Below, one piece after another: positions 4,280-64,000 of a stretch of 64,000 nucleotides of DNA. A program made the translations under genes and the position numbers. The stretch's first letter is position 1. Every line of letters begins with the position of its first letter. This stretch comes from an uncultured Bacteroidales bacterium (lineage in GTDB: Bacteria; Bacteroidota; Bacteroidia; Bacteroidales; Muribaculaceae). The stretch spans positions 1-64,000 of the forward strand of contig CACWID010000008.1 in the NCBI GenBank assembly GCA_902760865.1, given 5' to 3'. The notes under the pieces were generated by a model. The model ran no database searches, was not told the DNA's origin, and worked only from the letters and a program-made list of their open reading frames with translations.

Positions 4280-6097
4280 TCAATCAGGCCACTGCTTGCT
4301 CAGGATGAAGTTGATCAGAGCGGTAACGTCGGCGATGCTCCACTTGCCGTCCTTGTTGCAGTCGGCATTGGCACTGCTGAAGTTATCACTGTCAGTGTAG
4401 TCGTTCATGAGCACGTGGTTGATGAGGGTGGTAACGTCGGAGATGTTGACCTGGCCGTCATTGTTCACGTCGCCACGGATGCCTGCGGGAACTTCAACCT
4501 TGGTCAGGGTGCAGGTAATCTTCTCGTCGGGCTGTGCGGGATCGAAGGTGATCAGGATGTCATAAACGCCGGCTCCGTCGGGCAGGTAGGCGTTCCAGTT
4601 GTTCTCATAGCCGATGGGCCACTCATAGTCCCAGCTGTGGTTGCCCACCACCTTGAATCCGAAGAAGTCGTCGAGCTGAACGCCCTGCTTGGTCCAGGTG
4701 TAGATGCCGTCTTCACCCTTTACCATGTCGTTGTTGGTGTCGGTGCAATCCCACTCGGAGCCGAAGACATGAGCGGGACCAACAACGGTGTAAACCATCT
4801 CGGGCTGAGGATCCTCGTGCTTGATCACGTCGATGCCCACGATGCCGCCATCGGGATTGAAGACGAATACCAGGTCGTAGATGCCATCCTCGCCGATGTA
4901 GTACTCGGCATTGAAGTCGGCGGGCCACCAGGTGCCGTCGGAGGTCACCTTGTACTCAATCATCGTGCCGGCAGTGAGCTCAACGTTTTCCTTGGTCAGG
5001 TAGTAGCAGCCGTCCTCGCCCAGGGTCATGTTGTTCTCCTCGCTGATTTCCCAGTTGTTGAAGATGTTGGCGGCAACGGTGTAAACCGGCAGTTCCTTGG
5101 TCAGGCGGTAAACCCTAAGATAACCACCGGGATAGTACTGATAGATGGTCACTCCATCCTCGTCGACCTCGGCATTCAACCAGTTGTTCTGATAGCCGTT
5201 GGCTGCAACGGTAACGGTTGAAGGAACCGCAACGAGAGGCTCGGCAGCACCATCCTCGGCGATTGCCCAGCCGTCCAGGTAGTTGGTGGCATCTGCACCC
5301 TTGTAGGGATAAATAAAGAGTTCCTTGCCGTCCCAAACCAGCGGGAATGCACCGTTGCTGTTGCCCTTACCAGGCAATGCGATACCCGTCTTGGAGTATT
5401 CGTTGCCATTTAATACTAATTTGTTTGGAGCACCGCTGCGGTATACATAAAGCAAGGCATCGTTACCCTGCAGGTCCTTGTAGTAACTGATGGTCGTTGA
5501 CGTTATACCATAAATGCCACCGTCAACGGGGGCGAGATAGCTATTGTCGTAGTCAACCTCGCCATCAGTAATAGCCATGATGGCAACACCCGGGGTGAAA
5601 GGCTCTGTGTTGGTATTGCCGCCGGTCAGATAGATGACGCCATCTTGGGTCATGTCCCCCTGTGCAATGCCGAAGAAGTCGCATCGGCCACTCAATCCAC
5701 ATTCCTCTGGAATCTCGTATTCAGCTAATACCTCCATTGTGTTGGGGTCGAGAACCTTGATGGTCGAGCCCGCAGCGTTAGCTGAAAAAGAAGCTGTGCT
5801 GACAAGAAGGTGTCCGGCCTGGTCCATGCCTACTGCCGTGTTGGAAAAGCCATCATATACGGCGGGTTCACCTTGCTCGCCATAGACATAGAAAACGGGT
5901 TCACCCGTACCGCCAGCAGTGGGCCATTCGGTGTCGTTGATGTAGAACTTCCCGTTGATGCCGACGCCTTGACGTACACCGGAGAGGAAAAGGTTTGCAA
6001 CATCGGTTCTCTCCCAGACTTTCTCGAGCTTGTAGCCGTCGGCGCTAGCACCGAGGGCCAGAGCTGCCATGGCAGCTAATAGTAATAGTTTCTTCAT
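4280..6097 (-). CDS. secreted propeller-like protein with C-terminal dockerin pair
   Basis: 605 aa with a signal peptide (MKKLLLLAAMAALALGASA). Residues about 20-340 look like a repeat-rich beta-propeller ('GISTT', 'GHLLVSTASF', 'GRCDFFGIAQGDMTQDG'). They are homologous to the two tandem proteins at 31689 and 33222, which share an RCDY...GDLT segment. Residues about 345-535 hold two similar beta-sandwich repeats (each with WxISEENN/xWDCTDTNN and 'GEDGxY' turns), resembling SusE/F-type starch-binding modules. Residues 542-605 are two dockerin-like calcium loops of the DVT...LIN class. No enzyme motif is recognised. It has its own promoter and is monocistronic. Confidence 0.75.
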   Translation of the reverse strand: MKKLLLLAAMAALALGASADGYKLEKVWERTDVANLFLSGVRQGVGINGKFYINDTEWPTAGGTGEPVFYVYGEQGEPAVYDGFSNTAVGMDQAGHLLVSTASFSANAAGSTIKVLDPNTMEVLAEYEIPEECGLSGRCDFFGIAQGDMTQDGVIYLTGGNTNTEPFTPGVAIMAITDGEVDYDNSYLAPVDGGIYGITSTTISYYKDLQGNDALLYVYRSGAPNKLVLNGNEYSKTGIALPGKGNSNGAFPLVWDGKELFIYPYKGADATNYLDGWAIAEDGAAEPLVAVPSTVTVAANGYQNNWLNAEVDEDGVTIYQYYPGGYLRVYRLTKELPVYTVAANIFNNWEISEENNMTLGEDGCYYLTKENVELTAGTMIEYKVTSDGTWWPADFNAEYYIGEDGIYDLVFVFNPDGGIVGIDVIKHEDPQPEMVYTVVGPAHVFGSEWDCTDTNNDMVKGEDGIYTWTKQGVQLDDFFGFKVVGNHSWDYEWPIGYENNWNAYLPDGAGVYDILITFDPAQPDEKITCTLTKVEVPAGIRGDVNNDGQVNISDVTTLINHVLMNDYTDSDNFSSANADCNKDGKWSIADVTALINFILSKQWPD

Positions 6098-6183
6098 AAT
6101 TCAATCAATAAAATAATGGTTAATAATATAGGTAATAAAAGTTATTTGTCCATCCTGAAACGTAATCGTAATCAATTGTGTCG

Positions 6184-6214
6184 CAAAAATAACAAAAAAA
6201 CGAAAACAATCAAA
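6184..6214 (-). promoter_or_regulatory. promoter of the 4280-6097 gene
   Basis: On the minus strand: TTTG (6211-6214), 19 bases, TATTTTTG (6184-6191). Both boxes and the spacing fit the Bacteroidetes consensus. The leader would be about 80 bases. Confidence 0.65.
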
Positions 6215-6339
6215 CAAAACTTTGTTTTTATCACCAAAGGGTGCTGTAAATTACTGCTTTTAGCGGTGGTAGGTCGGTGCCTGTCATCTGTGGCGTTCAG
6301 GTGAGGGATGAATTGTTGAAAAATATTTCCTGTGTGCGC

Positions 6340-6370: not shown

Positions 6371-6420
6371 CAGCAGCAAATCAAACATCGTTAAGACCCA
6401 ATATTAATAATTTTAGAATT

Positions 6421-17469: not shown

Positions 17470-18747
17470 ATGAAAAATTTTTGGATTTCTATCGTGTTGT
17501 TGGGTCTCTTGCCGTTGCCAGGATGGGCTTATGCCGAGCAACAGTCAGATGTAGAGAATGTGACCCCAAATGAAAAAAATGTGGGAAAAACCGGACTGAC
17601 GAGCAAAGATAATGTCTCGCTAAGGGGTCGAACTCTTCGTTGGGATGTGAATATGGATGGCGAAGTGAGCATTGCTGATGTGAATGATGTCATTGATTAT
17701 ATCCTCTATGGCAGTCAACAAGAAATATCTTCGGCTTACTACTATGTGGGCACTAGCAATGATTGGACTCCTTGTGATCCCACCTATAAGCTGGATAACG
17801 GCGGTGGTGATGTGTATGCTAATCCCGTATTCACTGTTGTGGTTCCCGCTACCGGTGAGGATAACTGGTTCAAGATCTATTCTCAGGAGACCATGGACCT
17901 GGGTACCGACGGTTTCTGGAATGGCGACTTCATCGGCTTTGCCGAGAATGGCGCAAACGGGTTGAGCGGTAACTTCGTGGAGGGCACTAACGATCAGATC
18001 GCATTCAACTTCAAGATTCCCGCCGACATCCGTGCCGACAAGTATCGTCTGACTTTCGACATGATCAACCGCACCTTCAAATTTGAGGCTATCAGGGAAA
18101 CGCCTGACCTGTGGTATCTTGTGGGAAGCTGCATCGGTGACGGCTCATGGGATAATAATAACTATTATTCCTTGGGCACCTCGCTTGTTCCTCTGTACCC
18201 TCAACCTGGCAACAAAGATATGTTGAGCTACGTTGGTTATTTCCCCGCTGGTAAGGGCTTTAAATTAATTCATACGCCTGGCAGCTGGGATGAGCAATGG
18301 GGTCTGGGTAATGATGGCCACCTTGTGAAGAACGATGGCTATAGTGCTGGCATTGAGGTTGCTGAGGACGGTTACTACCAGATTACTTACAACTTGAATA
18401 TGGACGTTGTCACAATTGCCAAATACATAGGTGTTGTAGACGTTTTCACATCAATGGGTATGCCTGGCGCCTATCAGGATTGGGATCCTGCTACTGCACC
18501 ATTGATGAGTCCTATGGGCACGGTCTATGAGAACCATGACTGGATCAAGAAGAAAATGATCTTTGGCTCCGATACAGAACTCAAGTTTACTGCTGATGGC
18601 AGCTGGATGATGAACTGGGGAAGCGAAGCATTCCCAGTTGGCGTCGGTATTGAATATGGTCCCAACATTCCTATTAGTGCTGGAACTTATACGGTCGTTT
18701 TCAATGACATTTTAGGAATATATTATTTTATTGAGGACCTTGAGTGA
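17470..18747 (+). CDS. SusE/SusF-like secreted glycan-binding protein with an N-terminal single dockerin loop
   Basis: 425 aa with signal peptide ending near 'GWAYA'. A lone dockerin-like loop, 'WDVNMDGEVSIADVNDVI' (from residue 58), precedes about 345 residues of repeated beta-sandwich modules. These have 'YYVGTSNDWTP', 'WYLVGSCIGDGSW' and 'TSMGMPGAYQDWDP' starts, the pattern of SusE/SusF starch-binding domains. It probably binds glycan at the surface and has no catalytic motif. Codon use is visibly more AT-rich than its neighbours. A 24-bp duplication of the GH20 3' end lies just after it, suggesting insertion. The tag position and single loop are unlike every other dockerin protein here. 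Confidence 0.75.
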   Translation: MKNFWISIVLLGLLPLPGWAYAEQQSDVENVTPNEKNVGKTGLTSKDNVSLRGRTLRWDVNMDGEVSIADVNDVIDYILYGSQQEISSAYYYVGTSNDWTPCDPTYKLDNGGGDVYANPVFTVVVPATGEDNWFKIYSQETMDLGTDGFWNGDFIGFAENGANGLSGNFVEGTNDQIAFNFKIPADIRADKYRLTFDMINRTFKFEAIRETPDLWYLVGSCIGDGSWDNNNYYSLGTSLVPLYPQPGNKDMLSYVGYFPAGKGFKLIHTPGSWDEQWGLGNDGHLVKNDGYSAGIEVAEDGYYQITYNLNMDVVTIAKYIGVVDVFTSMGMPGAYQDWDPATAPLMSPMGTVYENHDWIKKKMIFGSDTELKFTADGSWMMNWGSEAFPVGVGIEYGPNIPISAGTYTVVFNDILGIYYFIEDLE

Positions 18748-29728: not shown

Positions 29729-29740
29729 CTTGATGCCGTT

Positions 29741-31327: not shown

Positions 31328-31435
31328 CAGGATTTTGCGGAGTTGTAGCATATTGATAATCAGCTATTCTTGTAAAGCTGTGGAGGTAGCACGGAGCGCT
31401 GGGAGAGTTTGATACGCTACTAGCCGAAACCGTCG

Positions 31436-31500
31436 GTAGCATCAACGCCCCCTGGCCCCCTCTAATCTTAGAGGGGGAATTTCTAACGCGCTGAGTGACA
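31436..31500. repeat. GC-rich dispersed element, copy 1
   Basis: GTAGCATCAACGCCCCC, then the palindrome CCCCCTCTAAT/CTTAGAGGGGG (31456-31477), then CTAACGCGCTGAGTGACA. Near-identical elements lie at 41118-41183 (same orientation) and 61796-61851 (reverse). The surrounding 31328-31688 gap holds otherwise only AT-rich leader and a promoter. Confidence 0.8.
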
Positions 31501-31596
31501 ATAAATAAATTGACGTTATCGAGTTAATGGGTCATTTTATTCATGCTGTTTAGGGACTTGTGAGGCGGTTTTTTTTGTAATTATTGGCGGTGGCAT

Positions 31597-31627
31597 TTTG
31601 AAAGTAAAGAAATTTTGTGTTACTTTG
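31597..31627 (+). promoter_or_regulatory. promoter of the 31689 gene
   Basis: TTTG (31597-31600), 19 bases, TTACTTTG (31620-31627). It separates this transcript from the GHL10/CotH unit. Confidence 0.6.
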
Positions 31628-31688
31628 CTAAGTTATAAGAATAGGGAATGAATTAATAACAATATAACAACTTAAAAACCAACCGATT

Positions 31689-33086: not shown

Positions 33087-33124
33087 GCCATCCTTTCCTC
33101 CACGATAACAACGAATAAATTTAA

Positions 33125-33187: not shown

Positions 33188-33221
33188 CTTTTCATAACCT
33201 ATCTAAAAAACTTCATAAGCA

Positions 33222-37857: not shown

Positions 37858-38166
37858 TTGCTGTTGCCCGTTGTTCTCCACCGACCTGCCAAGCGGCTTG
37901 ACCCTGTCGCCCAGCCTGCTACTTTCCGCATTGTTATGGCAGACGGCGGCTCTGGAGCAACCTACGTTGATGATATATCCCTGTACTATATCGATGTGGT
38001 GGGTGATGTGAACGGGGACAGGGAAATCAATATCGCCGATATCAATGCGGTTATCGACCTGATCCTGAATGATGACCTGATACCTGTCGCCGACGTGAAC
38101 GGAGACGGCGAGGTCAATATCGCTGATGTCAACGCCCTGATTGCTTTAATACTCAGCAAAAGATGA
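37858..38166 (+). pseudogene. C-terminal remnant of a dockerin-tagged C10 protease gene
   Basis: A 102-codon open frame with no signal peptide or catalytic domain. From 'PATFRIVMADGGSGATYVDD' onward it matches the end of the intact C10 proteases at 38236 and 43009 ('RIAMTGGGSAAAYVDD', 'RISMIGGGTGATYVDD'), followed by a full DVN-class dockerin pair (49-102). The 20 or so preceding codons do not match. It is best read as what remains after deletion of an upstream tandem copy. Production of a free dockerin module is possible but there is no sign of a promoter or export signal. Confidence 0.8.
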
Positions 38167-51498: not shown

Positions 51499-53934
51499 AT
51501 GAAAAAAATGACAATCTTTGCCGCCCTGATGTTGGTGGCAATTCAGGCACTTGCAGCCAGTGTTGATCTGAGGACAGCTAGCGCCAAGGCCACTGACTTT
51601 ATGCGTGCCAAGGCCGTTAATGGCCGTCTGATGACCTCTGAGCCTACCGTGAAGTGGGTTCATCAGGAGAAGAACTCTAGCAATGTCGCCCTGACAGCTT
51701 TCTACATCGTGAACACCGACAGGGGTTATGTCATTGTTTCCGGTGACGACCGCGCCAAGGACGTCCTCGCCTACGGCGAAGGCTCCCTCTCGAGCGTGAA
51801 TGACCTGCCCGAGGCCGTGCAGTACTTCCTCAACATCTACCAGAAGCAGATAGAATACCTGCAGGCCCATCCCGGACTGGTGGTGAAGAAAACTGCTGGC
51901 ACCCGTGGCGTCTCGGTTGAACCCATGCTGCAGACCGCATGGGCACAGGACAAGCCCTACAACAAGCAGTGTCCCAAGGTGGGCAATACTTATTGCAAGG
52001 TGGGTTGCACCGCTGTTGCCCTGGCCCAGGTGATGAGGTACTGGGAATTTCCTGCTGTTGCCCCCGCCCTGCCGGCCTACACATGTGAGGAGTCGGGCAT
52101 CAATGTGCCTGCCCTGCCCGGTAACTACACCTTTGACTGGGATAACATGTGGGATACTTATTATAATGTTGATCTTGACCGTGTGCCCGAGGTGAATGAG
52201 AACGCTATCGCTTACCTGATGCGCTATGTGGGCCAGGCCGAGAAGGTGGATTATAATACCAATCAAACCGGTACCAGAAATCCTGAGATTCTTACTGCTA
52301 TCAACACTTTCGGTTTTGACGAGGGCGCATGCATTGTAAAGAAATGTGACTCCCCTGATACCCCCGAAGAACTCGCAGCTGGTGCCTATACCGAAGAACC
52401 GTATTACACTGATGAAGGTTGGGCTGAAGCCATCCAGGCCGAGCTGCGTGCCGGTCGTCCGCTGATTTATTGTGCTTATGACATGTCGTCTGACTCAACA
52501 CAGCTCGCTGGCCATGCCTTCAATGTTGACGGTTATAACGCCGAGACCGACATGTACCACGTGAACTTCGGTATGAGGCCCGACTTGAATACCTACTATG
52601 CGCTCGATGCTTTCTCGACCGATGGTTGGATGATGGTTTATGACTTCTGGCCCATCTTCTTCGCTGGCGTGCAGCCTCCCGGCCTGAATACCGATCCCCG
52701 CATCCTGGTCAGCCCGCAGGAACTCACGATGGAGTGCTATACTGGTGAGACCACTACTGCAACCTTCGATGTGGTAGGTGAGAGACTGAGCGAGGACATC
52801 ACGGTTGCCCTTAATGATGCCAATGGCGTCTTCAGTGTAGATGTCACCACCATTGCTGTAGAAGACGGTGCCGCTAGTGCGACTGTCACTGTGACCTATG
52901 CTCCCCAGGCTGTCGGTACCCATAATGCCACCATCACCCTGAGCAGCGAAGGCGCCGCTGATAAGGTCATCACCCTCAAGGGTGTCGCCACCAACGCTCC
53001 TCTCGTAGTCTATGATCCCGTCATGCTTCCCGCAGCCGAGAACTACATCACGCTGACCTCCTTCCGTGCCGACTGGACCGACCAGACCGTTGCCGAGAAC
53101 GTTGAAAGTTACACTCTCGAGGTAAGCCAGAAGCCCGAAACTCCCGCTGGACTTCTTGCCGAGGCCGACTGGAGCGAACTGCCCATTGTCAGTGGCAATC
53201 AAGCATCTCATGCCCTCGACTATCTGCCCGAGGGTTGGGGATTCAGCGGCTCTGACATGTATCTTGACAAGGGCGGTTCCATTTCGTTATCGACCGAAGA
53301 CTATGTCATGACGCCCACTCTGGATCTGACAGGTGTTGATAAGATTACCGTTGTCGTTCGTGCAATGGGTTATGGCGGCTGGCGCAATTCTGGCTTCACC
53401 GTAGCAACCAGTGTTGACTCCAAGACGGTAGAGCTTACCAACAACGACGATTACGTTGACTATACCCTGGTGCTGAATTGTGGTGAAACAGAGAGAGTCA
53501 GGGTCATTGCTGACTACTATCCTTACTTCCAGCTTGTACAGGTCTATGCTGGCGAGATGGCTGCACCGCAGCTGCGTGCCACCAAGGCTGATAGCGAGAC
53601 CTATCGCCTGATCGAGGGCATCACCGGCAAGTCCTGCACCGTTGAGAACCTGGCTGAAGGCGGCACCTTCCTCTACAAGGTGAAGGCCCTCTACACCGAT
53701 GGCACCGAGAGCGCTTGGAGCAACGTCGAGGAGGTAACCCTGGCAGGTACCGGCTACCAGATCGGTGACGTGAACCATGACGGCAAGGTGAACATCCAGG
53801 ACGTTACCGCCCTGATCAACATCCTGCTCACCCAGGTTATAGCTCCCGACGAGGCCAACGTGAACGGTGACAACATCATCAATATCTCAGACGTTACCGC
53901 CCTGATCAACAAGCTGCTCACGGCGGGTGTATAA
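51499..53934 (+). CDS. C10 cysteine protease, FN3-with-insert type, C-terminal dockerin pair
   Basis: 811 aa. Signal peptide (MKKMTIFAALMLVAIQALA), propeptide (20-130), and catalytic Cys170 ('CKVGCTAVALAQ') and His339 ('AGHAFNVDG'). The usual NWGW after the histidine is changed to 'YHVNFGM', so one conserved Trp is lost while the Asn remains. An ASH/Ig-like domain (about 405-500) is followed by a fibronectin-III-like domain split by an inserted beta domain (about 510-750). DVT-class dockerin pair (756-811), the second loop with 'DNII' in place of DG. Activity is likely but the loop change could alter specificity. Confidence 0.92.
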   Translation: MKKMTIFAALMLVAIQALAASVDLRTASAKATDFMRAKAVNGRLMTSEPTVKWVHQEKNSSNVALTAFYIVNTDRGYVIVSGDDRAKDVLAYGEGSLSSVNDLPEAVQYFLNIYQKQIEYLQAHPGLVVKKTAGTRGVSVEPMLQTAWAQDKPYNKQCPKVGNTYCKVGCTAVALAQVMRYWEFPAVAPALPAYTCEESGINVPALPGNYTFDWDNMWDTYYNVDLDRVPEVNENAIAYLMRYVGQAEKVDYNTNQTGTRNPEILTAINTFGFDEGACIVKKCDSPDTPEELAAGAYTEEPYYTDEGWAEAIQAELRAGRPLIYCAYDMSSDSTQLAGHAFNVDGYNAETDMYHVNFGMRPDLNTYYALDAFSTDGWMMVYDFWPIFFAGVQPPGLNTDPRILVSPQELTMECYTGETTTATFDVVGERLSEDITVALNDANGVFSVDVTTIAVEDGAASATVTVTYAPQAVGTHNATITLSSEGAADKVITLKGVATNAPLVVYDPVMLPAAENYITLTSFRADWTDQTVAENVESYTLEVSQKPETPAGLLAEADWSELPIVSGNQASHALDYLPEGWGFSGSDMYLDKGGSISLSTEDYVMTPTLDLTGVDKITVVVRAMGYGGWRNSGFTVATSVDSKTVELTNNDDYVDYTLVLNCGETERVRVIADYYPYFQLVQVYAGEMAAPQLRATKADSETYRLIEGITGKSCTVENLAEGGTFLYKVKALYTDGTESAWSNVEEVTLAGTGYQIGDVNHDGKVNIQDVTALINILLTQVIAPDEANVNGDNIINISDVTALINKLLTAGV

Positions 53935-53996
53935 GGGTTAAAGAATTGCCGACATCAGTCACTATAAACTGACGTTTGAAAATTGATAACTGAGAA

Positions 53997-54030
53997 GGCC
54001 TGAGGCGCAACGGCGCTTCAGGCCTTTTTT
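53997..54030 (+). terminator. rho-independent terminator
   Basis: Stem GGCCTGAGGCGC / GCGCTTCAGGCC (12 bp, one G-T pair), loop AACG, then TTTTTT. Follows the 51499 protease gene. Confidence 0.85.
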
Positions 54031-54114
54031 CGTTTTTTCGGCGTTTTTTATGAGAAAATGTCGTTTTGGGGCAAGTTTTGCCTAATAAATGTCTTGGGGT
54101 TGTGAATTATTATT

Positions 54115-54122
54115 TACCTTTG
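54115..54122 (+). promoter_or_regulatory. -7 element of the 54199 protease gene
   Basis: TACCTTTG with CTTG 18 bases upstream (54093-54096). The leader carries ACCACTATTGTATTAA at 54162-54177. Confidence 0.55.
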
Positions 54123-54198
54123 TCAGATATTCAAAACGTGATACCATTCTTGACCGAATTAACCACTATTGTATTAACCAAATAAAACCAAATCATTT

Positions 54199-56304
54199 AT
54201 GAAAAAGATGCTTCTGCTGGCCGCTGTCCTGATGGCGGCACTGCATGTGACAGCTGCCGATGTTGACTTGCAGGCGGCCAAGTCCATTGCACAACAGTTC
54301 CTGGCCGGACCGTCAGCCGGACCGAGTATTAAAGCTCCGAATCCTGCCGTCAAGTGGGTCTATCAGGAAATGAATTCGTCCAACGCCGCCCAGACGGCCT
54401 ACTACGTCGTCAACACCGACGGCGGCTTTGTCATCGTTGCCGGTGATGACCGTGCCCGCCAGGTGCTCGGCTACGGTGACGCTCCCCTGGCCGACATGAA
54501 GTCGCTGCCCGAGAATATGCGCTTCTGGCTCAGCTACTACAAGAAGCAGATGGAATGGCTCGAGGCCCGTCCTGGCATGAAGGTCGATAACTCCAAGCTG
54601 CGCGCCTCGCAAGTCGGTGAAATCGAGGCTCTGCTCGAGGCCGAGTGGAACCAGGGTGATCCCTACTACGGCCAGTGCCCGATGGACGGCGACCGCCGTT
54701 CCCAGACGGGCTGCGCCGCGACATCGCTGGCCCAGGTGTTCTACAAGTGGAAATATCCCGTCGATCTCACGCCTGTCGTTCCCGGCTACACCACACGCAC
54801 CAGGGGCTTTGTCCTTGATCCGTTGCCCTCAACCAGGTTTGATTGGGAAAACATGTTGCCGACCTACACGATTTTCTCCCCTAATGCCAGCAAGACTGCC
54901 GTGGCCCAGCTGATGCGTTACATCGGCCAGGCCGAGGAGATGGACTATACCAACGAGGGTAGCGAGGCATGGGAGGAAGATGTCTTGAGGGCCTGCAAGC
55001 TGTTTGGCTATAATGATGCCCACATCTCCTACAAGAGCTTCCTCAACAATGAGTATGTCGAGATCGTTTACTACACCGATGCAGAATGGGAAGTCATGCT
55101 CCAGGAAGAGCTGGCTGCCGGACGCCCCGTTGTGTATTGCGCTTACGCTTACAACACCGGCTATGAGAAATACTACGGTCATGCCTTCAATGTTGACGGA
55201 ATTGACGCCAATGGCTTCTACCACATCAACTGGGGATGGAGTGGCACCGGTAACGGACACTTTGCGTTCAATGCATTCAGCAACCAAGGCAATACCTACA
55301 ATATCGGCCAGCTGATGGTCATGGGCATCGAGCCCCCGGCTCCCCTTGACGCTCCCGTGCTGCAACCCGCCGACACGACCCAAGTGACCGCTACCTCGTT
55401 CACGGCCCAGTGGACCGCAGTCGAGGGAGCCGCCACCTATACCCTCGATGTGTACAAGGCCGGTTCCGGCGAACAGCCGCCGACGGGTGTGTACGAGAAA
55501 GTGTTCAGTGAGTCATTCCCTTACTGCCAGAGCAATGGCCCCTCGCCTATCACCAGATATGATAACTTCTGCCAGAACCCTGGCTGGACAGGAACCAACG
55601 GCTATGAGGCCAAGGGCGGCATTCGCCTGGGTTCGGCCTCACAGGTGGGCCGCATCGTCACTCCAGACTTGGACATGACCCAGAGCGGCGGCAAGATGAC
55701 TGTCAAGGCCACCATGAAGCCCTACAGCAGCGATACCGATGTGCCTGTCGCCTTCTCTTGCGGCAACTCCATCGTTGAAGTAACGGTCAGCACCGAGGCT
55801 ACCTATACCGTTGTCCTGGATTGCGAGGAAGCCGAGGGACAGAAGGTGACCATTGCCACGACGACCGGCGGCAAGCGTGTCGTGGTTACCCAGGTTGACA
55901 TCTACAGTGCTGTCGAGGGCGCAACGGGAATGCGCTTTACCGTGCCTGTCAAGGAAGGCGGCGACACCCAGCGCCTGATCACCGGCATCGAGACGACGAG
56001 CTACACTGTGACCGGCCTGCTCACCGATGAGTATGAGTTCAGGGTGAAGGCCGTGAGTGCCAACGGCACCGAGAGCCCCTGGAGCAACGTCGAACTGGTG
56101 ACCCTGTTCGATTATGCGCCCGCCTATCAGCTCGGTGACGTGAACCACGACGGCAAGTTGAACATCTCGGATGTTACCGCTCTGGTCAACATGCTGCTCA
56201 CCCAGGCCGAAGCTCCCGCCGAGGCCAACGTCAATGGCGACAGCACCGTGAATATCTCGGATGTGACCTATCTGATCAATATGTTGCTCACGACATCAAA
56301 TTGA
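54199..56304 (+). CDS. C10 cysteine protease with C-terminal dockerin pair
   Basis: 701 aa. Signal peptide (MKKMLLLAAVLMAALHVTA), propeptide, and catalytic Cys172 ('SQTGCAATSLAQ') and His328 ('YGHAFNVDG', then 'YHINWGWSG'). It lacks the ASH-like domain of its neighbours. The split fibronectin-III-like domain with inserted beta domain spans about 385-640. DVT-class dockerin pair (646-701). The next protease gene follows after 35 bp without a terminator, so the two are probably one transcript. Confidence 0.93.
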   Translation: MKKMLLLAAVLMAALHVTAADVDLQAAKSIAQQFLAGPSAGPSIKAPNPAVKWVYQEMNSSNAAQTAYYVVNTDGGFVIVAGDDRARQVLGYGDAPLADMKSLPENMRFWLSYYKKQMEWLEARPGMKVDNSKLRASQVGEIEALLEAEWNQGDPYYGQCPMDGDRRSQTGCAATSLAQVFYKWKYPVDLTPVVPGYTTRTRGFVLDPLPSTRFDWENMLPTYTIFSPNASKTAVAQLMRYIGQAEEMDYTNEGSEAWEEDVLRACKLFGYNDAHISYKSFLNNEYVEIVYYTDAEWEVMLQEELAAGRPVVYCAYAYNTGYEKYYGHAFNVDGIDANGFYHINWGWSGTGNGHFAFNAFSNQGNTYNIGQLMVMGIEPPAPLDAPVLQPADTTQVTATSFTAQWTAVEGAATYTLDVYKAGSGEQPPTGVYEKVFSESFPYCQSNGPSPITRYDNFCQNPGWTGTNGYEAKGGIRLGSASQVGRIVTPDLDMTQSGGKMTVKATMKPYSSDTDVPVAFSCGNSIVEVTVSTEATYTVVLDCEEAEGQKVTIATTTGGKRVVVTQVDIYSAVEGATGMRFTVPVKEGGDTQRLITGIETTSYTVTGLLTDEYEFRVKAVSANGTESPWSNVELVTLFDYAPAYQLGDVNHDGKLNISDVTALVNMLLTQAEAPAEANVNGDSTVNISDVTYLINMLLTTSN

Positions 56305-56339
56305 TTCAAACACAGTGAATATCGTCGTCAACCGAATTC

Positions 56340-58697
56340 ATGGTGAAACGAATCGTATTATTCTTGTTGGCAGCCCTGCTGATGGCGACATGGACCAGGG
56401 CTGCACATGTCAATGAAACGGCTGCACGTGCCACGGCCGGACGTTTCCTGTCCGGCCTGGCCGCAGACGGCCGCCTGCGGGCTCCCGCCCAGGGTGGTTT
56501 GCGACTCGCCCATGCCGAGGTGAGCACCACGGCTGGCGCGATGCCTGTCTATTACATCTTCAATGCCGCCGACGCCTTTGTCGTAGTGGCTGGTGACGAC
56601 CGCGCCAGGGAAGTGCTGGCGTGGGGTGACCAGGCGCTTGACATGGCCCGTGTGCCCGACAACATGCAGTACTGGCTTGACACTTACAAGCGTCAGCTGG
56701 AGTACTTGCTGGCCCATCCCGATGTTCAGGTTTCTGCTCCACAGCGTGCCGGCCAGGTGGTGAACCCCTTGCTCACGGCCAACTGGAGCCAGGCCACACC
56801 TTACTGGAACGAGTGTCCCGTCTTCGGCAGTGACACCTGCTACACGGGCTGCCCTGCCACGTCACTCTCGATGGTGTTCCATTACTGGCGGTATCCGCGG
56901 CAGCAGACGCCCGCCGCCCCGTCCTATATGATACCGACCTATGGCGTGGTATTGCCCGAGCTGCCGCCCACGACCTTCGACTGGGACAATATGCTCGATA
57001 ACTACACCGGCGCTTACACCGCTGCCGAGGCATCGGCCGTAGCCCACCTGATGCGTTACATCGGCCAGGTGGAACAGATGGACTACACCATCTCGGGCAG
57101 TGGTGCCTATGGCAAGGACGTCCTGCGTGCCGTGAAGCACTTCGAGTATGACCAAGACGCCCAGCTGCTGTTCAAGACCGACGACTTGGGCTATGACAAC
57201 TATAGCGATGCCCAGTGGGCCGCATTGATCCAGGCCGAACTCGAGGCAGGCCGCCCGATTGTCTATTGTGCCTATGACAACTACACGGGTGCGGGCCACG
57301 CCTTCAACGTCGATGGATATGACGGCAATGGCGGTTACCATATCAATTGGGGTTGGAACGGCCGTGGCAACGGCCACTTTGCCTTGAACGCCTTCACCTA
57401 TGAAGGCTACACCTTCGGCACCGGCCAGCAGATGGTCATCGGCATTCAGCCGCCCGAGGACTATCAGATGCCTCGTCTGCAGGCTTATCCCATGTCCCTC
57501 GCCCTGCAGTGCTACATCAATCAGACGGCCGTCGGGACGGTGAGCCTGAAAGGCACTAACCTGACGGGTGACGTGACCCTCACGCTCGATGACCCGGATG
57601 GCGTGTTCGCCATTGACGCTACTACACTGGCCAGGGATGTCGCCGAGGGTGGTCACGACATCACGGTGACCTATACTCCCACCGCAGTGGGCACCCACAG
57701 CGCTACCTTGAGGCTGGAGAGCCCCGATGCCGATCCGGTGACCGTCACGCTTACAGGCACGGCACCGCTTGAGGTGTATGCTCCCGTGATGCTGCCCGCT
57801 GCCGAGGCCAGCATCAACCTGACCTCATTCCAGGCCGTCTGGACCGATTCGACGCCGGCCGCCAATGTCGCCGGCTACACCCTCGAGGTGCAGGCCAAAC
57901 CCGCCTATAGTCTGCTCGAGGAGGCCGACTTCAGCGACCTGCTTCGCATGTCGCCCACCAACCAGGCCTCACACGCCACCGATTATCTGCCCGACGGCTG
58001 GACCTTCAGCGGTTCGGAGTTCAACCTGGAGGGAGGCTGCGTCATGCCTCGCCGCAATAGTGTCATCACCACCGATGACCTCAATCTGACAGGCTATGAC
58101 AAGGTGACGGTCGTGGTGACGGCGCGCAGTTATGGCTCGTGGGGTGACCCGTCAGAGCTGACCATCGCGACCAGCCTCGCCAGCGAGACGATTGCTTTGC
58201 CGTTCTCTTATGCTGAGACCGCTGTGGTCCTCGACTGTGCCGAGACCGACAAGGTCCGTTTCACGGCAGGCTATTACCCGATGATCCAGGCCATCCGTAT
58301 CTATGCCGGCGATGCCAGCGGGCTGGTGTCGCTCAGGGACACCGAGCAAGGCGATGCCGGTTACCGCCTGATTACCGGTATCACCGGCAAGGCCTATACC
58401 GTCGAAAATCTCACAGCCGGTGGCGTCTTCTTCTACAAGGTCAAGGCGCTCTATACTGATGGCAGCGAGAGCGAGTGGAGTAATACCCAAATGGTGACCC
58501 TTACTGAGAACACCCACAACTTCCAGACCGGTGATCTGAACCACGACGGCAAGTTGAACATCGCCGACGTGACCGCATTGATCAATGCACTGTTGACCCA
58601 GATTGTTCCCTGTCAGACCTGTGCCGACGTCAATCACGATGGCATCATCAACATCGCCGATGTCACTGCCCTGATCAACCGCCTGCTGACGCAGTAG
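56340..58697 (+). CDS. C10 cysteine protease with C-terminal dockerin pair
   Basis: 785 aa. Signal peptide (MVKRIVLFLLAALLMATWTRA), propeptide, and catalytic Cys171 ('CYTGCPATSLSM') and His320 ('AGHAFNVDG', then 'YHINWGWNG'). ASH/Ig-like domain (about 385-480), then the split FN3-like domain with inserted beta domain (about 485-720). DVT-class dockerin pair (731-785), both loops reading 'IADVTALIN'. Second gene of a probable two-protease transcript ending at a terminator at 58707. Confidence 0.93.
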   Translation: MVKRIVLFLLAALLMATWTRAAHVNETAARATAGRFLSGLAADGRLRAPAQGGLRLAHAEVSTTAGAMPVYYIFNAADAFVVVAGDDRAREVLAWGDQALDMARVPDNMQYWLDTYKRQLEYLLAHPDVQVSAPQRAGQVVNPLLTANWSQATPYWNECPVFGSDTCYTGCPATSLSMVFHYWRYPRQQTPAAPSYMIPTYGVVLPELPPTTFDWDNMLDNYTGAYTAAEASAVAHLMRYIGQVEQMDYTISGSGAYGKDVLRAVKHFEYDQDAQLLFKTDDLGYDNYSDAQWAALIQAELEAGRPIVYCAYDNYTGAGHAFNVDGYDGNGGYHINWGWNGRGNGHFALNAFTYEGYTFGTGQQMVIGIQPPEDYQMPRLQAYPMSLALQCYINQTAVGTVSLKGTNLTGDVTLTLDDPDGVFAIDATTLARDVAEGGHDITVTYTPTAVGTHSATLRLESPDADPVTVTLTGTAPLEVYAPVMLPAAEASINLTSFQAVWTDSTPAANVAGYTLEVQAKPAYSLLEEADFSDLLRMSPTNQASHATDYLPDGWTFSGSEFNLEGGCVMPRRNSVITTDDLNLTGYDKVTVVVTARSYGSWGDPSELTIATSLASETIALPFSYAETAVVLDCAETDKVRFTAGYYPMIQAIRIYAGDASGLVSLRDTEQGDAGYRLITGITGKAYTVENLTAGGVFFYKVKALYTDGSESEWSNTQMVTLTENTHNFQTGDLNHDGKLNIADVTALINALLTQIVPCQTCADVNHDGIINIADVTALINRLLTQ

Positions 58698-58706
58698 AAT
58701 CCATAC

Positions 58707-58763
58707 TTCCGGCTATGGGCTCCGACGGCTGACACTTGGAGCCTGTAGCCGGGAGTTTTTTTA
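58707..58763 (+). terminator. rho-independent terminator
   Basis: CTTCCGGCTATGGGCTCC pairs with GGAGCCTGTAGCCGGGAG with few mismatches, followed by a run of seven T. Ends the two-protease transcript. Confidence 0.75.
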
Positions 58764-58901
58764 TTGTGTATTTGTAATTGTTTTTCGTCTATTCGCTGAA
58801 AATAGTTGCAAATTCATTTGAAATAATTTTACTTAGCAAGCTATAAATTAGTTATAACGTGACTTTATTAACATCTAATTAAAATTAAATCTGTAAGGCT
58901 T

Positions 58902-61673
58902 ATGAAGAAATTCCTATTGTTATTGACAGCGGCCATTACGGCCATGTCATTGTCGTCGGCTCCCGTTGATCAAGCGACGGCACAACGTAAGGCAAAGAGC
59001 TTTCTGACACAACACATGTATGCCGGGAAAACCATGTCGGCCTCGGCCCTCAACCCTGTTCTTGTCAAGACCGAGATGGGAAGTGCCAAAATTAATCAGC
59101 CTGTCTATTACATTTACAACACATCCACGACTTTTCTCGTTATTGCCGGTGATGACCGTGCCGAGGAAATCCTCATGATCGGCGATCGTCCCCTGAAGGA
59201 CGTCAACAACCTGCCGCCGGGCATGCTGGACATGCTCCGTCAGTACAAGGAGGAGATTTCATTCTTGCAAGAGAATCCTAATTTGAAGGTGGCTCCCATT
59301 GTCAGCCCTGAGAATACACCCATGCTGCGTGCAACGAATGTCGGCCCGCTGCTGACCGCCAACTGGGACCAGCAAGAACCCTATTACAACCAGTGCGTGT
59401 TCAAGTACAACAACCGGAACTATCAGTGCTTGACGGGCTGCCCTGCCACCTCGGCCTCGATGGTGCTGTACTTCTGGAAGTACCCGACTACTCCGACCGG
59501 AAATCTTGATTCCTATCAAGGATACCTCGACCTCTCAAGCGGTTATACCTCTAATGAGGTCAGTTTTACCTATCCTGCCCTGTCGTCCACCACATTTGAC
59601 TGGGCCAACATGAGGGATGATTATACCGGCGAATACACCACTGCTGAGGGTAATGCCGTGGCAACGCTGATGCGCTATGTGGGCCAGGCCGAGCAGATGA
59701 TATATGGTCCCAACGGCAGCGGCATCAGTGTCGATGACGCTCAGCATGTGGCCGACATGTTCATCCGTTTCGGTTATGATGCCACCACAACCCGCCTTGT
59801 GAAGCAGTATGAGAAAATGGACAATTCTGGCAACGTGTCGGGCCGCATCTATACCGATGCACAGTGGGCTGCCATGATTCAGGAGGAGATGGCTGCCGGC
59901 CGCCCCATCGTGTTCATGGCAGTGGACTTGAGTAATGGTGGTCATGCCTTCAACGTCGATGGCTACCGCAGCAGCGACAACAAGTACCACATCAACTTCG
60001 GCTGGAGTGGCGAGGGAAATGATTGGTGCGCACTGAATGCTTTCGGATATACCACATCCTCGGGCTGGTGGAGCACATCTTATAATTTCAATACTTATCA
60101 GCAGATGATTATCGGCATCCAGCCGCCCTCAACCGCTACTCCCGAACTGACTGTCAATCCCACTTCGCTGAGCTTTACCGGCCAGACAGGTGAGACCTAT
60201 ACCAAGACCTTTACCGTGACGGGTACTGACCTGCGCGGTGATGTGAACGTTTCGTCCAACAGCGGTGTCTTTGCCGTATCGCCCACTACGATCACTGCCG
60301 CCCAGGCGGCAGCCGGCGCCACGGTGACTGTCACCTACATCCCGACGACAGCGGGCACCCAGAACGGCACGATTACCATCTCGAGCAGTGCTGCCGAGGA
60401 CAAAACCGTCACCGTAACGGGTACCGCAACCAGCGTTCCCAAGCTCGTTGCCGATCCCTCGACGCTGAACTTCAACACCGTGATGGGCACCCCCGTCACC
60501 CAGTCGTTCATGCTCACTGGCCTGAACCTGACGGGCGATGTTGACCTGTCGGTCAGCGGCGCTGAATTCACGATCAACAAGACCCACGTGGACAAGGCCA
60601 ACGCCAGTGCGGGCGCCGTGGTCACCGTTACCTATTTCCCGACTGTCGCCGGCACTCACACCGGTACCGTGACCATCACCAGCGCCGACTGTGCTGACGT
60701 GACTGTTGCCCTCAACGGTGTCGCCGACATCGTGAAGGCCGTTCCCGTGATGCTGCCTGCCAACGAGGAATACATCAACCTGACCAAGTTCCGTGCCGAC
60801 TGGACCGATGCTACCCCCGATGAGAATGTGGCCAGCTACACCCTCGAGGTGAACGGCAAGCCCGAGGTGGTTGAATTGCTCGGCTCCATCGACGGTACTT
60901 CTTACACCAACCAGAGCTATCAGGCAGTGACGCTCTCTGCTCCCTGGTCGGGCAACAACGTCTATGGCGGCTATGGAGCCATCTACTTCCGCAACGCTAC
61001 CCACCAGTCGGCAACCACCGATGGCTACATCAAGTTCACCATCCCCGCAGGCTACCAGAACCAGACCTTCACCGTGAAGATTACCACGGCCAGCGGTCAG
61101 TATGGCAGCGGCAGGTTTGTAGTGGGCTCGAACCAGACGGCAGCCGTTGAGTACAACATGAGTGCGACCGAGACTCACAGCTGGCTCGTGACCGGCAACA
61201 GCGGTGAGGTGATTACCGTCACTTCGCCCGAGAATCAGTACTCACCCGACATCGCCCTGATCGAGGTTTATGCCGGTGACGCTACTGCTGCCACCCTCAA
61301 CGCTACCAGGGACGTCGATCCCGACTATCGCCTGATTGAGGGTATCACCGAGAAGTTCTTCACCGTTGAGGACCTGACTGCCGAGGGCACCTTCCTCTAC
61401 AAGGTGAAGGCTATCTACATCGACGGCACCGAGAGCGAGTGGAGCAACATCGAGGAGGTTACGCTGTTTGAGAATGGCCACGGCTATGAAGTGGGCGACG
61501 TGAACCACGACGGCAAGCTGAACATCTCTGACGTGACTGCTCTGACCAACTATCTGTTGACCAATGGCGAGGGCGACGGATGTGCCATCTGCGGTGACAT
61601 GACAGGCGACGGCAATGTGACCATCGCCGACGTGACCGCGCTGATCAACTACCTGTTGACGCACTCAAATTAA
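58902..61673 (+). CDS. C10 cysteine protease, two ASH-like domains, C-terminal dockerin pair
   Basis: 923 aa, the longest complete protease here. Signal peptide (MKKFLLLLTAAITAMSLSSA), propeptide, and catalytic Cys180 ('CLTGCPATSASM') and His348 ('GGHAFNVDG', then 'YHINFGWSG' with Phe for the first Trp). Two consecutive ASH/Ig-like domains (about 410-505 and 505-605) reflect an internal duplication. They are followed by the split FN3-like domain with insert (about 610-860) and a DVT-class dockerin pair (865-923) whose second loop is 'GDMTGDGNVTIADVT'. Confidence 0.93.
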   Translation: MKKFLLLLTAAITAMSLSSAPVDQATAQRKAKSFLTQHMYAGKTMSASALNPVLVKTEMGSAKINQPVYYIYNTSTTFLVIAGDDRAEEILMIGDRPLKDVNNLPPGMLDMLRQYKEEISFLQENPNLKVAPIVSPENTPMLRATNVGPLLTANWDQQEPYYNQCVFKYNNRNYQCLTGCPATSASMVLYFWKYPTTPTGNLDSYQGYLDLSSGYTSNEVSFTYPALSSTTFDWANMRDDYTGEYTTAEGNAVATLMRYVGQAEQMIYGPNGSGISVDDAQHVADMFIRFGYDATTTRLVKQYEKMDNSGNVSGRIYTDAQWAAMIQEEMAAGRPIVFMAVDLSNGGHAFNVDGYRSSDNKYHINFGWSGEGNDWCALNAFGYTTSSGWWSTSYNFNTYQQMIIGIQPPSTATPELTVNPTSLSFTGQTGETYTKTFTVTGTDLRGDVNVSSNSGVFAVSPTTITAAQAAAGATVTVTYIPTTAGTQNGTITISSSAAEDKTVTVTGTATSVPKLVADPSTLNFNTVMGTPVTQSFMLTGLNLTGDVDLSVSGAEFTINKTHVDKANASAGAVVTVTYFPTVAGTHTGTVTITSADCADVTVALNGVADIVKAVPVMLPANEEYINLTKFRADWTDATPDENVASYTLEVNGKPEVVELLGSIDGTSYTNQSYQAVTLSAPWSGNNVYGGYGAIYFRNATHQSATTDGYIKFTIPAGYQNQTFTVKITTASGQYGSGRFVVGSNQTAAVEYNMSATETHSWLVTGNSGEVITVTSPENQYSPDIALIEVYAGDATAATLNATRDVDPDYRLIEGITEKFFTVEDLTAEGTFLYKVKAIYIDGTESEWSNIEEVTLFENGHGYEVGDVNHDGKLNISDVTALTNYLLTNGEGDGCAICGDMTGDGNVTIADVTALINYLLTHSN

Positions 61674-61724
61674 GGCGCGCGGCAGTTACGGTTTGTAACA
61701 ACCGACAACTCTTGAAATAATCAG

Positions 61725-61761
61725 GTTCCCGAGGGAAATCTCCCTTCGGGAACTTGTTTTT
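61725..61761 (+). terminator. rho-independent terminator
   Basis: GTTCCCGAGGGA / TCCCTTCGGGAAC stem, short loop, then TTGTTTTT. Follows the 58902 protease gene. Confidence 0.75.
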
Positions 61762-61795
61762 ACATTAATACCAGTCCTACAAATATATCGTTTGG

Positions 61796-61851
61796 GAATC
61801 AATGCGTCAGCAACTCCCCCTCTAAGGGGGCCGGGCAGGCGTCGATGCTAC
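61796..61851. repeat. GC-rich dispersed element, copy 3 (reverse orientation)
   Basis: CAACTCCCCCTCTAAGGGGG then CCGGGC and CGATGCTAC, the reverse complement of the elements at 31436 and 41118. The rest of the 502-bp gap (61674-62175) holds the terminator, a CCTGGCG-TT-GCGCCAGG hairpin near 61988, and a promoter. Confidence 0.75.
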
Positions 61852-62087
61852 CGATGAAAGTCGTTAGCTGCAGTAGCACGAACGCCCGCGCCCTGACAGG
61901 TGCTCCCTATTGGTCAAGAAGGGGTGTTGTTAACGCATTCATTCTCAGCTGATACTCTGTCTTTACACGAGCTGGATGTCCATCGGCCTGGCGTTGCGCC
62001 AGGTGTCATTTTGAAGCCCTGCGGCCCGCCACGATGTCATTTTCGTGTAAAAAAATGGTTTTTCTGAATAATTTATTAGAACAAATA

Positions 62088-62119
62088 TTTGGTTGTTATT
62101 ATTGGTTTTTGTTATTTTG
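62088..62119 (+). promoter_or_regulatory. promoter of the last protease gene
   Basis: TTTG (62088-62091), 20 bases, TTATTTTG (62112-62119). Leader about 55 bases. Confidence 0.6.
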
Positions 62120-62175
62120 CGGCGTATTCAAGAAACATCTTTTTTTCGTTTTATAATTATCAAAATTCAGTGCTT

Positions 62176-64000
62176 ATGAAGAAAATTCTATTGCTTGTTG
62201 TGGCCGTTCTTATGGCCCTTCAAATGTCGGCTGGCGACGTCACTGCCTCGCAGGCACAGGCCGCAGCCAATGCGTTTCTTAGAAAACAGGTAGCCGCAGG
62301 TCATCTTAAAGCCTCGGCAGTATCTAACCTGCAACTTGTCAAGTCTGAAGCCTCGGTGGCTAAACCCACGGCCGTGGACTACTACATCTTCAATTCGGCT
62401 AAATCCTATGTGGTAGTTTCCGGTGATGACTTGGCACCCCAAATCCTGATGTACGGTGAGGAGGGTTCTCTCGACTTGAACAACATCCCTCCCGGCATGC
62501 AGTGGTTACTCAACAAGTACAAATATCAGATCGACGGCCTCAAGGCTGGTACCATGGTGCCGGTGAAGCTCCCCAAGTTTGCCACCACACCCGTTGCACC
62601 GCTGGTAAACGCCAACTGGGACCAGAGCGCACCTTATAACAACCAGTGCCCCTCCAGTGGCGGCAGTCACGCTGTCACGGGTTGCCCGGCCACTTCGTTG
62701 GCCATGTGCTACTACAAGTGGAAATGGCCCGAGACCTATCCCGCAGTAGCAGCACTCTCGGGTACTGGCGGCCTCAGTGCCGCTGCTCTGCCTGAACGTG
62801 CAGCCGACTGGGCTAACATCATCGACGAGTACACTGGTCCGACCAACTATACTTCCACAAGTGAACAGAAGGACGCTGTGGCATGGCTGATGCGCTATGC
62901 AGGCCAGTCAATTCCCGATTACCAGTACAGCACCAGTGCCAGCGGTGCCAACGACCCCGAGATCTTCCAGGGCTGTAAAAACATGGGTTATACTGATGCA
63001 CAGTACCTCCTGCTCACCGAGCTCGAGAGTTCGGGTTGGACCTACACCAATGGCCCGCAGCAGTATACCGACGCCGAGTGGAACGAATTTATGTTGAACG
63101 AGCTGCACAACGGCCGTCCCATCGAGTATCTGGCTTATGATATCCAGAATGGCTATAACGTTTCGGGTCACGCCTTCAATGTGTTTGGCTGCAATGCCAG
63201 TGGCCAGTACTACGTGAACTGGGGCTGGAGCGGCGACAGCAACGGCTATTGCACGCTGCACAACTTCACCACCGCTACTGGTGCAACGGGTCAGGCTGGC
63301 GCCTACGTCTTCAAGTATGGCGAGGCCATGATTATCGGTATCGAGCCTCCCGCAGGAGCCCTCAACACTCCCAGGATTAAGGTTAACCCCACCTCGCTCA
63401 TAATGAACGCTATTGTGGGCAATCCTGTCACCGCCACCTTCACCGTTACCGGTTACAACCTCACCGACAGGGTGAATCTGGCCCTCAGCGGTAGTAACGC
63501 TTTCTCGCTGAGCACCACCAGCATCAGCGCTGCCCAGGCCGCTAACGAAGTGACTGTCACTGTGACCTATAACCCCACAGTGTCAGGCACCGATGAGGCC
63601 ACCGTTACGTTGACCAGCGCCGAGGCCGAGGCCGTGACGCTCAAGATTAACGGTACTGCCGACCTGGAGACCTATAAACCCGTGATGCTCGATGCCCGCA
63701 ATATCACATCCACCTCGTTTACCGCTGCCTGGACCGACGAGACCCCTGCTGCCAACGTGGAGAGCTACACCCTCTATGTGAGCGACAAGCCGTTCCGTCC
63801 TCCCTATGCTCTGCTTGACAGCGTCGACTGGAGTAGTAACAACAACGTACCTTCTGGCTGGACGCAAAGCGGTCTGAATTATTGGAGTTCCAATAGCGCA
63901 AGCTACCTGAGCGACGGCGGCTATGTGCAGACCAAGACCTACGATCTCACGGGTTATGACAAGGTGACCGTGATGGTTTACTCTGAGCCTTATCAAGGCA
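62176..64000 (+). CDS. C10 cysteine protease, truncated by window end
   Basis: At least 608 residues, open to the window edge. Signal peptide (MKKILLLVVAVLMALQMSA), propeptide, catalytic Cys170 ('AVTGCPATSLAM') and His332 ('SGHAFNVFG', then 'YYVNWGWSG'). An ASH/Ig-like domain (about 395-495, 'FTVTGYNLTDRVNLALSG') and the start of the FN3-with-insert domain ('TSFTAAWTDETPAANVESY') follow. The architecture predicts a DVT-class dockerin pair beyond the window. The ATG at 62176 is supported by the signal peptide and promoter. Confidence 0.92.
   Translation, partial: MKKILLLVVAVLMALQMSAGDVTASQAQAAANAFLRKQVAAGHLKASAVSNLQLVKSEASVAKPTAVDYYIFNSAKSYVVVSGDDLAPQILMYGEEGSLDLNNIPPGMQWLLNKYKYQIDGLKAGTMVPVKLPKFATTPVAPLVNANWDQSAPYNNQCPSSGGSHAVTGCPATSLAMCYYKWKWPETYPAVAALSGTGGLSAAALPERAADWANIIDEYTGPTNYTSTSEQKDAVAWLMRYAGQSIPDYQYSTSASGANDPEIFQGCKNMGYTDAQYLLLTELESSGWTYTNGPQQYTDAEWNEFMLNELHNGRPIEYLAYDIQNGYNVSGHAFNVFGCNASGQYYVNWGWSGDSNGYCTLHNFTTATGATGQAGAYVFKYGEAMIIGIEPPAGALNTPRIKVNPTSLIMNAIVGNPVTATFTVTGYNLTDRVNLALSGSNAFSLSTTSISAAQAANEVTVTVTYNPTVSGTDEATVTLTSAEAEAVTLKINGTADLETYKPVMLDARNITSTSFTAAWTDETPAANVESYTLYVSDKPFRPPYALLDSVDWSSNNNVPSGWTQSGLNYWSSNSASYLSDGGYVQTKTYDLTGYDKVTVMVYSEPYQG

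Follow-up and report, generated by a model that had tools for sequence, protein, structure and literature searches.

The 64,000-nucleotide stretch of DNA analysed here (positions 1 to 64,000 of contig CACWID010000008.1 in assembly GCA_902760865.1, from an uncultured Bacteroidales bacterium of the Muribaculaceae; hereafter the window) raises a simple question: why do so many otherwise varied exported proteins end in a pair of dockerin calcium loops? Type I dockerins bind cohesins, and an initial annotation made from the sequence proposed that the dockerin is a general assembly or surface-anchoring signal with a receptor encoded elsewhere. This proposal gains weight from putative cohesins, and cohesin proteins with tails resembling those of the type IX secretion system (T9SS), in the same genome and genus. 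We think it probable, judging from the sequences, that this rumen-type genus has a genome-wide cohesin-dockerin system for surface display, in which the dockerin has largely replaced the individual T9SS sorting domain.

We judged the significance of the window's dockerins from Pfam E-values. All 13 intact genes initially described as ending in a dockerin match PF00404 (Dockerin_1) above the 22.9-bit cut-off; their whole-protein E-values lie between 1.2e-5 and 2.8e-17, and in each of them the match stops two to six residues short of the protein end. The N terminus is hydrophobic in all 13 proteins, and a crude pattern finds no lipobox in them. A remnant dockerin pair (PF00404 E = 4.7e-7) and a gene with a single dockerin-like loop near its N terminus are present as first annotated, and the naming of the cargo holds up in Pfam: seven C10 proteases with the I69 prodomain, GHL10, CotH and NAGPA proteins, and unknowns. 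The dockerin is also genome-wide; the count of tagged proteins that the annotation had called for gives at least 154 matches in the 3.35 Mb genome (G000, 61 contigs), corresponding to about 150 places or more. This count comes from the scoring of 150 of 301 first-look candidates, and a few entries are halves of one pair; all of those listed lie above the cut-off, one of them only together with its neighbours.

Dockerin abundance appears to be a property of the genus. We compared 30 genomes of the family, hand-picked after their cohesin counts were known and thus not a random sample (12 of the genus, six others with a cohesin match and 12 without); the counts are lower bounds. All 12 of the chosen genus genomes have at least 61–154 dockerin matches, as opposed to 0–9 in 17 of the 18 others, with medians of 131 and 0.5 for the genus and the 18 others; the eighteenth, G001, belongs to a different genus of the family and has 32.

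Comparison with homologues in sister genera shows what stands in place of the dockerin. Among C10 proteases, Dockerin_1 is present in 17 of the 19 genus proteins but in none of the 30 from sister genera. Because the NCBIfam model TIGR04183 picks up only 10 of these 30 sister tails, we built a local sorting-domain profile from them, and in leave-one-out form (E<=0.01) this finds 29 of the 30 sister tails but only one of the 19 genus tails; its controls gave no match in 18 other window genes or in 1120 shuffles. At the same threshold the profile finds a sorting domain in none of the seven window C10 proteases, and no Por_Secre_tail is listed for the window dockerin proteins. The genus set consists of 12 of 47 genus matches plus the seven window genes. 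For the sister set, 31 of 47 non-genus matches were fetched and 30 counted; the first gene of L066, whose start is cut off and whose tail is T9SS-like by eye, was left out. Two genus proteases depart from the pattern: L091 has one loop at its end, and in L088 the T9SS tail is retained. A quick tree of the prodomain and catalytic domain requires at least six tag changes, two of which are forced by starred branches; L087 (dockerin) and L088 (tail), both from genome G109, cluster with L081 (tail) at 99. The direction of change cannot be read from the tree, and we infer that it ran from tail to dockerin.

Endonuclease I follows a similar course, in a sample of 30 loci of which 14 were re-fetched for full ends (17 copies are non-genus, including two of G001). 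Six of the 13 genus copies carry a dockerin only, four a dockerin followed by a sorting tail, and three a tail only; proteins of the second kind would fit an intermediate state. None of the 15 sister copies outside G001 has a dockerin: 12 have a tail by profile (E<=0.02), one (L167) has a tail by eye, and two (L170 and L171) have neither by these means. We note separately that both endonuclease I copies of G001 (L186 and L187) bear dockerins with a distinct loop sequence, DVSALLEMVL, and that three C10 proteases of this genome have T9SS-like tails. Because a T9SS sorting domain sits at the dockerin position in the sister-genus homologues, the role of the dockerin seems more specific than that of a tag; we found no description of dockerins replacing T9SS tails in the open-access library searched.

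Repetitive modules spread easily, and the tagged proteins might be periplasmic or freely secreted, with the dockerin a neutral domain that has been copied repeatedly. We regard this as very improbable, because dockerins replace T9SS tails on homologues and because two intact-looking loops are present in 55 of the 58 proteins examined by pattern search, both of which argue for a selected function.

If the dockerin has a function, where is its receptor? The initial annotation saw no cohesin, scaffoldin or T9SS sorting domain. For the window this stands, and neither PF00963 nor a home-made cohesin profile finds a match there; it does not extend to the genome, where the search for cohesin domains recommended by the annotation finds 12–13, all outside the window, along with T9SS-type tails. 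PF00963 reports six cohesin domains above the cut-off in three frames, and the home-made profile, made from eight of the genome's own domains, finds 13 places, one of them partial. Receptor A, with the order cohesin-dockerin-cohesin-tail (Coh-Doc-Coh-tail), is represented by P0001 and P0002 on C13 and C17, and each is followed directly by a gene for receptor B, a 220-residue protein with a signal peptide, a cohesin and a dockerin. Receptor C (P0005, on C30) consists of leucine-rich repeats (LRR, recognised by eye), a dockerin, a cohesin and a tail. On C7 lies a scaffoldin with four cohesins and a C-terminal dockerin (G000:C7:125470-127278; L009 7471-9279).

These arrangements recur across the genus. 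The A/B pair is present in 14 of 17 loci from named metagenome-assembled genomes (MAGs), as a Coh-Doc-Coh-tail gene and then a Coh-Doc gene of 211–232 residues; one further locus has a longer second gene. A dockerin profile confirms the dockerins in 15 of 15 A proteins and 14 of 14 B proteins, and in other genus members the second gene has 2, 4 or 6 cohesins. In 57 of 61 genus genomes receptor C has a BLAST match that covers the dockerin and continues to the end of the cohesin region; among the matches listed, it extends to the tail in 28 genomes. Goat, roe deer and water buffalo are mentioned in record titles of the named MAGs, and the RUG-named relatives we take to be cattle rumen MAGs. Two loci without the genus pattern, L061 and L063, have paired cohesin-like domains on proteins of about 2000 residues with T9SS-like tails and no dockerin motif; this protein form is possibly the source of the receptor pair.

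The fold of a Coh-Doc adaptor was predicted with AlphaFold2 for L047, a relative's protein rather than one from this genome (mean predicted local distance difference test score, pLDDT, 85.9; predicted template-modelling score 0.63). The first 44 PDB matches to this model are by title cohesins, cohesin-dockerin complexes or pieces of cellulosomes or scaffoldins; the titles at ranks 30 and 37 do not name a cohesin, an adhesin domain stands at rank 45, and template-modelling scores by target reach 0.81. The dockerin helices are seen in the same model. A PDB sequence search with cohesin alignment A3 returned only two weak, irrelevant matches (E = 0.021 and 0.35). For the tail of the P0001-type protein of L047 the prediction is a sandwich of seven strands (pLDDT 88.9), and the RgpB C-terminal domain (CTD) is its first PDB match (Foldseek E = 5.7e-3); a second RgpB CTD ranks 12th and the mirolase CTD 25th.

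Folded proteins leave the cell by the T9SS through SprA, and many of them are then attached to the surface. SprA was the one T9SS component searched for, and it is present in the genome (TIGR04189, 2615.7 bits) and in none of 14 control genomes. The sorting profile recognises the tails of P0002 (5.5e-11) and receptor C (1.9e-6), and marginally that of P0001 (0.02); with the signal peptides that we see by eye, receptors A and C thus appear to have both features of T9SS cargo, a signal peptide and a C-terminal sorting domain. Matches to TIGR04183 have a median of 10 per genome in the genus (n = 12) versus 22.5 in the others (n = 18; Mann-Whitney p = 0.0016, relatedness ignored).

The display system we propose would operate as follows. 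Varied exported proteins (BspA-type LRR, DUF285, C10, endonuclease I, CotH, amylase and others) would each have a signal peptide together with a type I dockerin, which in most cases is C-terminal. Their partners would be a small number of candidate receptors, namely A (Coh-Doc-Coh-tail), B (a Coh-Doc adaptor, with up to six cohesins in relatives), C (LRR-Doc-Coh-tail) and the four-cohesin scaffoldin. The T9SS would export receptors A and C and anchor them through their sorting tails, and the dockerin cargo, most of it tail-less, would be held at the surface by their cohesins, either directly or through Coh-Doc adaptors. For the export of the tail-less cargo one tentative suggestion, which we put forward as doubtful but worth stating, is that the whole genus has given up protein-by-protein T9SS sorting for display by receptors, and that a few cohesin-bearing T9SS substrates act as carriers which take folded cargo, itself lacking a sorting domain, across the outer membrane or as far as it (piggyback export), different dockerin types being routed to different cohesins. 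Because tail-less cargo needs some route over the outer membrane, and because the dockerin occupies the position of the sorting tail, it might be argued that the dockerin is itself the export signal, for the T9SS or another outer-membrane exporter, and that the cohesins serve otherwise. This seems to us unlikely, given that the dockerin consists of a pair of helices with calcium loops, which has nothing of the beta-sandwich of the sorting domain, and is also found near the N terminus, ahead of a T9SS tail, and inside the cohesin receptors.

Several observations weigh against cohesin-dockerin display. The 12–13 cohesin domains are about twelve-fold fewer than the dockerins, and PF00963 has no match (E<=0.01) in 5 of the 12 genus genomes, in which the cohesins rest on the home-made profile. 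Cohesin-like domains occur also in those genera of the family in which dockerins are few or absent, in the two loci looked at on proteins without a dockerin motif, and thus a cohesin fold alone is no proof of a dockerin partner; conversely, neither Pfam nor the home-made profile finds a cohesin in G001, despite its 32 dockerins and its dockerin-bearing endonucleases. The likely signal peptide of the C7 scaffoldin lies in another frame, just upstream of the cohesins, a split that may reflect either an assembly error or a broken gene. The receptor tails are recognised in part: the sorting profile reaches E<=0.01 in 12 of 26 receptor-A tails and E<=1 in 21 of 26, the latter level being reached also by 10 of 1120 shuffles, and a reverse profile finds five of the 30 sister tails. 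The Foldseek E-value of the L047 tail is weak, and many matches to immunoglobulin (Ig)- and FN3-like and other domains stand beside the RgpB CTD. Lastly, three genus endonucleases and one genus C10 protease have kept the tail-only state.

The scarcity of cohesins, the Pfam-negative genus genomes, the cohesins of low-dockerin genera, G001 and the partial recognition of the receptor-A tails together leave room for another partner or role. Dockerins might be calcium-dependent modules for stability or dimerisation, or bind something other than cohesins, with the cohesin-like domains being unrelated adhesin modules; the cohesin-like domains of genera with few or no dockerins, the state of G001 and the few cohesins for many dockerins would all be in keeping with this. 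However, the two domains co-occur throughout the genus, they are fused in small adaptors and anchors, and the predicted fold is nearest to cohesins, and we accordingly consider such a role rather unlikely. We infer that the dockerins bind the cohesins and that the cargo is located at the cell surface.

What is displayed can be judged from a sample of 40 cargo proteins, comprising the even-numbered rows 2–84 of the genome dockerin list, of which row 40 (a window gene) and row 70 (at a contig edge) were excluded; the sample is biased towards strong matches and includes one receptor, that on C30. All 40 have a Dockerin_1 match. In a table covering 25 of the 33 families, the commonest are LRR_8 (10), LRR_5 (9), DUF285 (7), C10 (4), CotH (3), alpha-amylase (2) and FGE-sulfatase (2), with single members such as endonuclease I and subtilase. 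Of the 40 proteins, 33 have the dockerin at the C terminus (followed in L122 by an extension of 11 residues); in L107, L111 and L120 it begins no more than 30 residues from the N terminus, and in L131 at residue 132. In L126 it is followed by a sorting-like tail (profile E = 0.0025) and in L104 by further sequence that continues beyond the region retrieved; the remaining protein, L108, is receptor C. In a sample of tagged proteins from outside the window, the N terminus is hydrophobic in 37 of 37 cases, and five of the 37 match the lipobox pattern.

This cargo also bears on whether the dockerins and cohesins could make up a cellulosome or amylosome of the usual kind, directed at plant polysaccharides. 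The relatives come, by record title, from ruminant foregut samples, one scaffoldin combines tandem cohesins with a dockerin, and two of the 40 sampled proteins match alpha-amylase, all of which would be in keeping with such a complex. The leading families, though, are LRR_8 (10), DUF285 (7), C10 (4) and CotH (3); of the 33 families in the 40 proteins, the 25 tabulated include none of cellulases or hemicellulases, and Pfam finds no carbohydrate-binding module (CBM) on receptors P0001–P0004, the receptors covered by that scan (the C7 scaffoldin and P0005 lie outside it). The sampled cargo appears to be mixed and not cellulolytic, and on this sample we rejected the cellulosome, which we consider improbable.

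The dockerins fall into three types by their loop residues: T14/N18, the most common (both loops in 38 of the 55 proteins with two loops), N14, mostly with D18, and a V-type inside the genome's own A receptors. Seven window genes are of the N14 type, versus none of the 40 proteins sampled elsewhere; N14-type loops are also present in L173, an endonuclease I of this genome that lies outside that sample. More than one dockerin specificity is possible. The dockerin-bearing features of the window are as follows.

4280–6097, minus strand: protein of 605 residues, C-terminal dockerin at 4301–4474 (PF00404 3.4e-11); a pullulanase X25-like stretch is weak and below cut-off.
17470–18747, plus strand: exported protein of 425 residues whose one dockerin-like loop, DVNMDGEVSIAD at 17644, is N-terminal (motif scan).
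27155–29728, plus strand: GHL10 glycosidase-like protein (PF02638 9e-50), C-terminal dockerin at 29561–29719, N14/D18 type (PF00404 5.1e-8).
29741–31327, plus strand: CotH kinase-like protein (PF08757 2.3e-38), C-terminal dockerin at 31151–31318, N14/D18 type (PF00404 3.8e-9).
31689–33086, plus strand: unknown of 465 residues, C-terminal dockerin at 32922–33074, N14/D18 type (PF00404 1e-6).
33222–34607, plus strand: unknown of 461 residues, by eye an apparent paralogue of the 31689 gene, C-terminal dockerin at 34446–34598, N14/D18 type (PF00404 4.4e-7).
34604–36976, plus strand: NAGPA-like phosphodiester glycosidase (PF09992 2.2e-30), C-terminal dockerin at 36818–36967, loops N14/D18 and N14/N18 (PF00404 1.8e-8).
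38002–38151, plus strand: remnant with no intact gene, a dockerin pair after a fragment like a C10 C terminus (PF00404 4.7e-7 in a frame of 102 residues).
38236–40827, plus strand: C10 protease with I69 prodomain (PF01640 6.2e-66), C-terminal dockerin at 40663–40809, N14/D18 type (PF00404 2.5e-6).
41213–42553, minus strand: C10 protease (PF01640 8.4e-56), C-terminal dockerin at 41225–41392 (PF00404 2.8e-17, the best among the genome matches listed).
43009–45585, plus strand: C10 protease (PF01640 3.3e-66), C-terminal dockerin with loops at 45424 and 45511, N14 type (PF00404 1.2e-5).
51499–53934, plus strand: C10 protease, C-terminal dockerin at 53764–53919, T14/N18 type (Pfam).
54199–56304, plus strand: C10 protease with fn3, C-terminal dockerin at 56131–56289, T14/N18 type (Pfam).
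56340–58697, plus strand: C10 protease, C-terminal dockerin at 58530–58688, T14/N18 type (Pfam).
58902–61673, plus strand: C10 protease with Ig-like stretches, C-terminal dockerin at 61494–61661, T14/N18 type (Pfam).

The seven N14-type dockerins (DVNALID...) are clustered, at 27155–36976, 38236–40827 and 43009–45585, and adjoin a SusC/SusD-like locus, named by eye; neither the SusC/SusD-like genes nor a GH20 gene (14951), both neighbours in the window, has a dockerin. The translated frame of the remnant resembles, by eye, the tail of the adjoining C10 protease. Four C10 proteases lie in tandem within 51499–64000, and an exported gene starting at about 62180, at the right edge, has an N terminus resembling theirs; this gene runs past the window, and a frame that extends to C8:65446-65610 contains a dockerin.

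If our reading is correct, this would be a large Gram-negative cohesin-dockerin system for general surface display, in which homologous proteins supply natural tail-only, dockerin-plus-tail and dockerin-only states. Non-covalent delivery of cargo by the T9SS would become a testable question, and the genus would offer many natural cohesin-dockerin candidates for engineering.

How does this compare with known systems? The cellulosomes of clostridia and ruminococci have type I dockerins, the cohesin fold and adaptor scaffoldins with a dockerin, and are anchored through S-layer homology (SLH) domains or by sortase. The genus described here shares the dockerin family, the cohesin fold and the dockerin-bearing adaptor scaffoldins, but differs in its Gram-negative host, the T9SS-type tail as anchor, its non-cellulolytic sampled cargo and the lack of a CBM on the four receptors scanned. 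The type A sorting domain of the T9SS (TIGR04183; RgpB CTD) is C-terminal on the sister-genus homologues and on receptors A and C, and the window dockerins do not match it. Closer in its proportions is Ruminococcus albus, which has many dockerins and few cohesins and for which it has been proposed that cohesin anchors single enzymes to the surface with no large complex being formed (PMC6118326); the present genus is likewise dockerin-rich and cohesin-poor, but differs in phylum, type of anchor and cargo.

Dockerins have been met before in rumen Bacteroidetes. Their role in the polysaccharide utilization loci of these bacteria is described as not yet defined in one report (PMC7480376), and a table in another gives at most 11 dockerins per Bacteroidetes bin, with cohesins in two such bins, 129 and 136 (PMC6071333). 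Cellulosomes have been proposed in rumen Prevotella, and the same source reports the rumen Muribaculaceae C941 as dockerin-rich and without cohesins (PMC9863278). The present genus may be C941; a candidate receptor set was found here partly because the cohesins of some genomes are too divergent for the Pfam model.

The closest precedent that we found is Candidatus Stygibacter, of the Cloacimonadota, a system also inferred from MAGs, in which C-terminal dockerins are carried by enzymes that include peptidases (PMC8542988). There, a cohesin scaffoldin with a surface-attachment CTD serves few enzymes, and this single scaffoldin of 3,755 residues bears CBMs (PMC8542988). The system proposed here would differ in the number of tagged places, about 150 or more in a genome, and in having sampled cargo that consists mostly of proteins other than carbohydrate-active enzymes, several small receptors in place of one large scaffoldin, dockerins within the receptors themselves, and dockerins that replace T9SS tails on homologous proteins.

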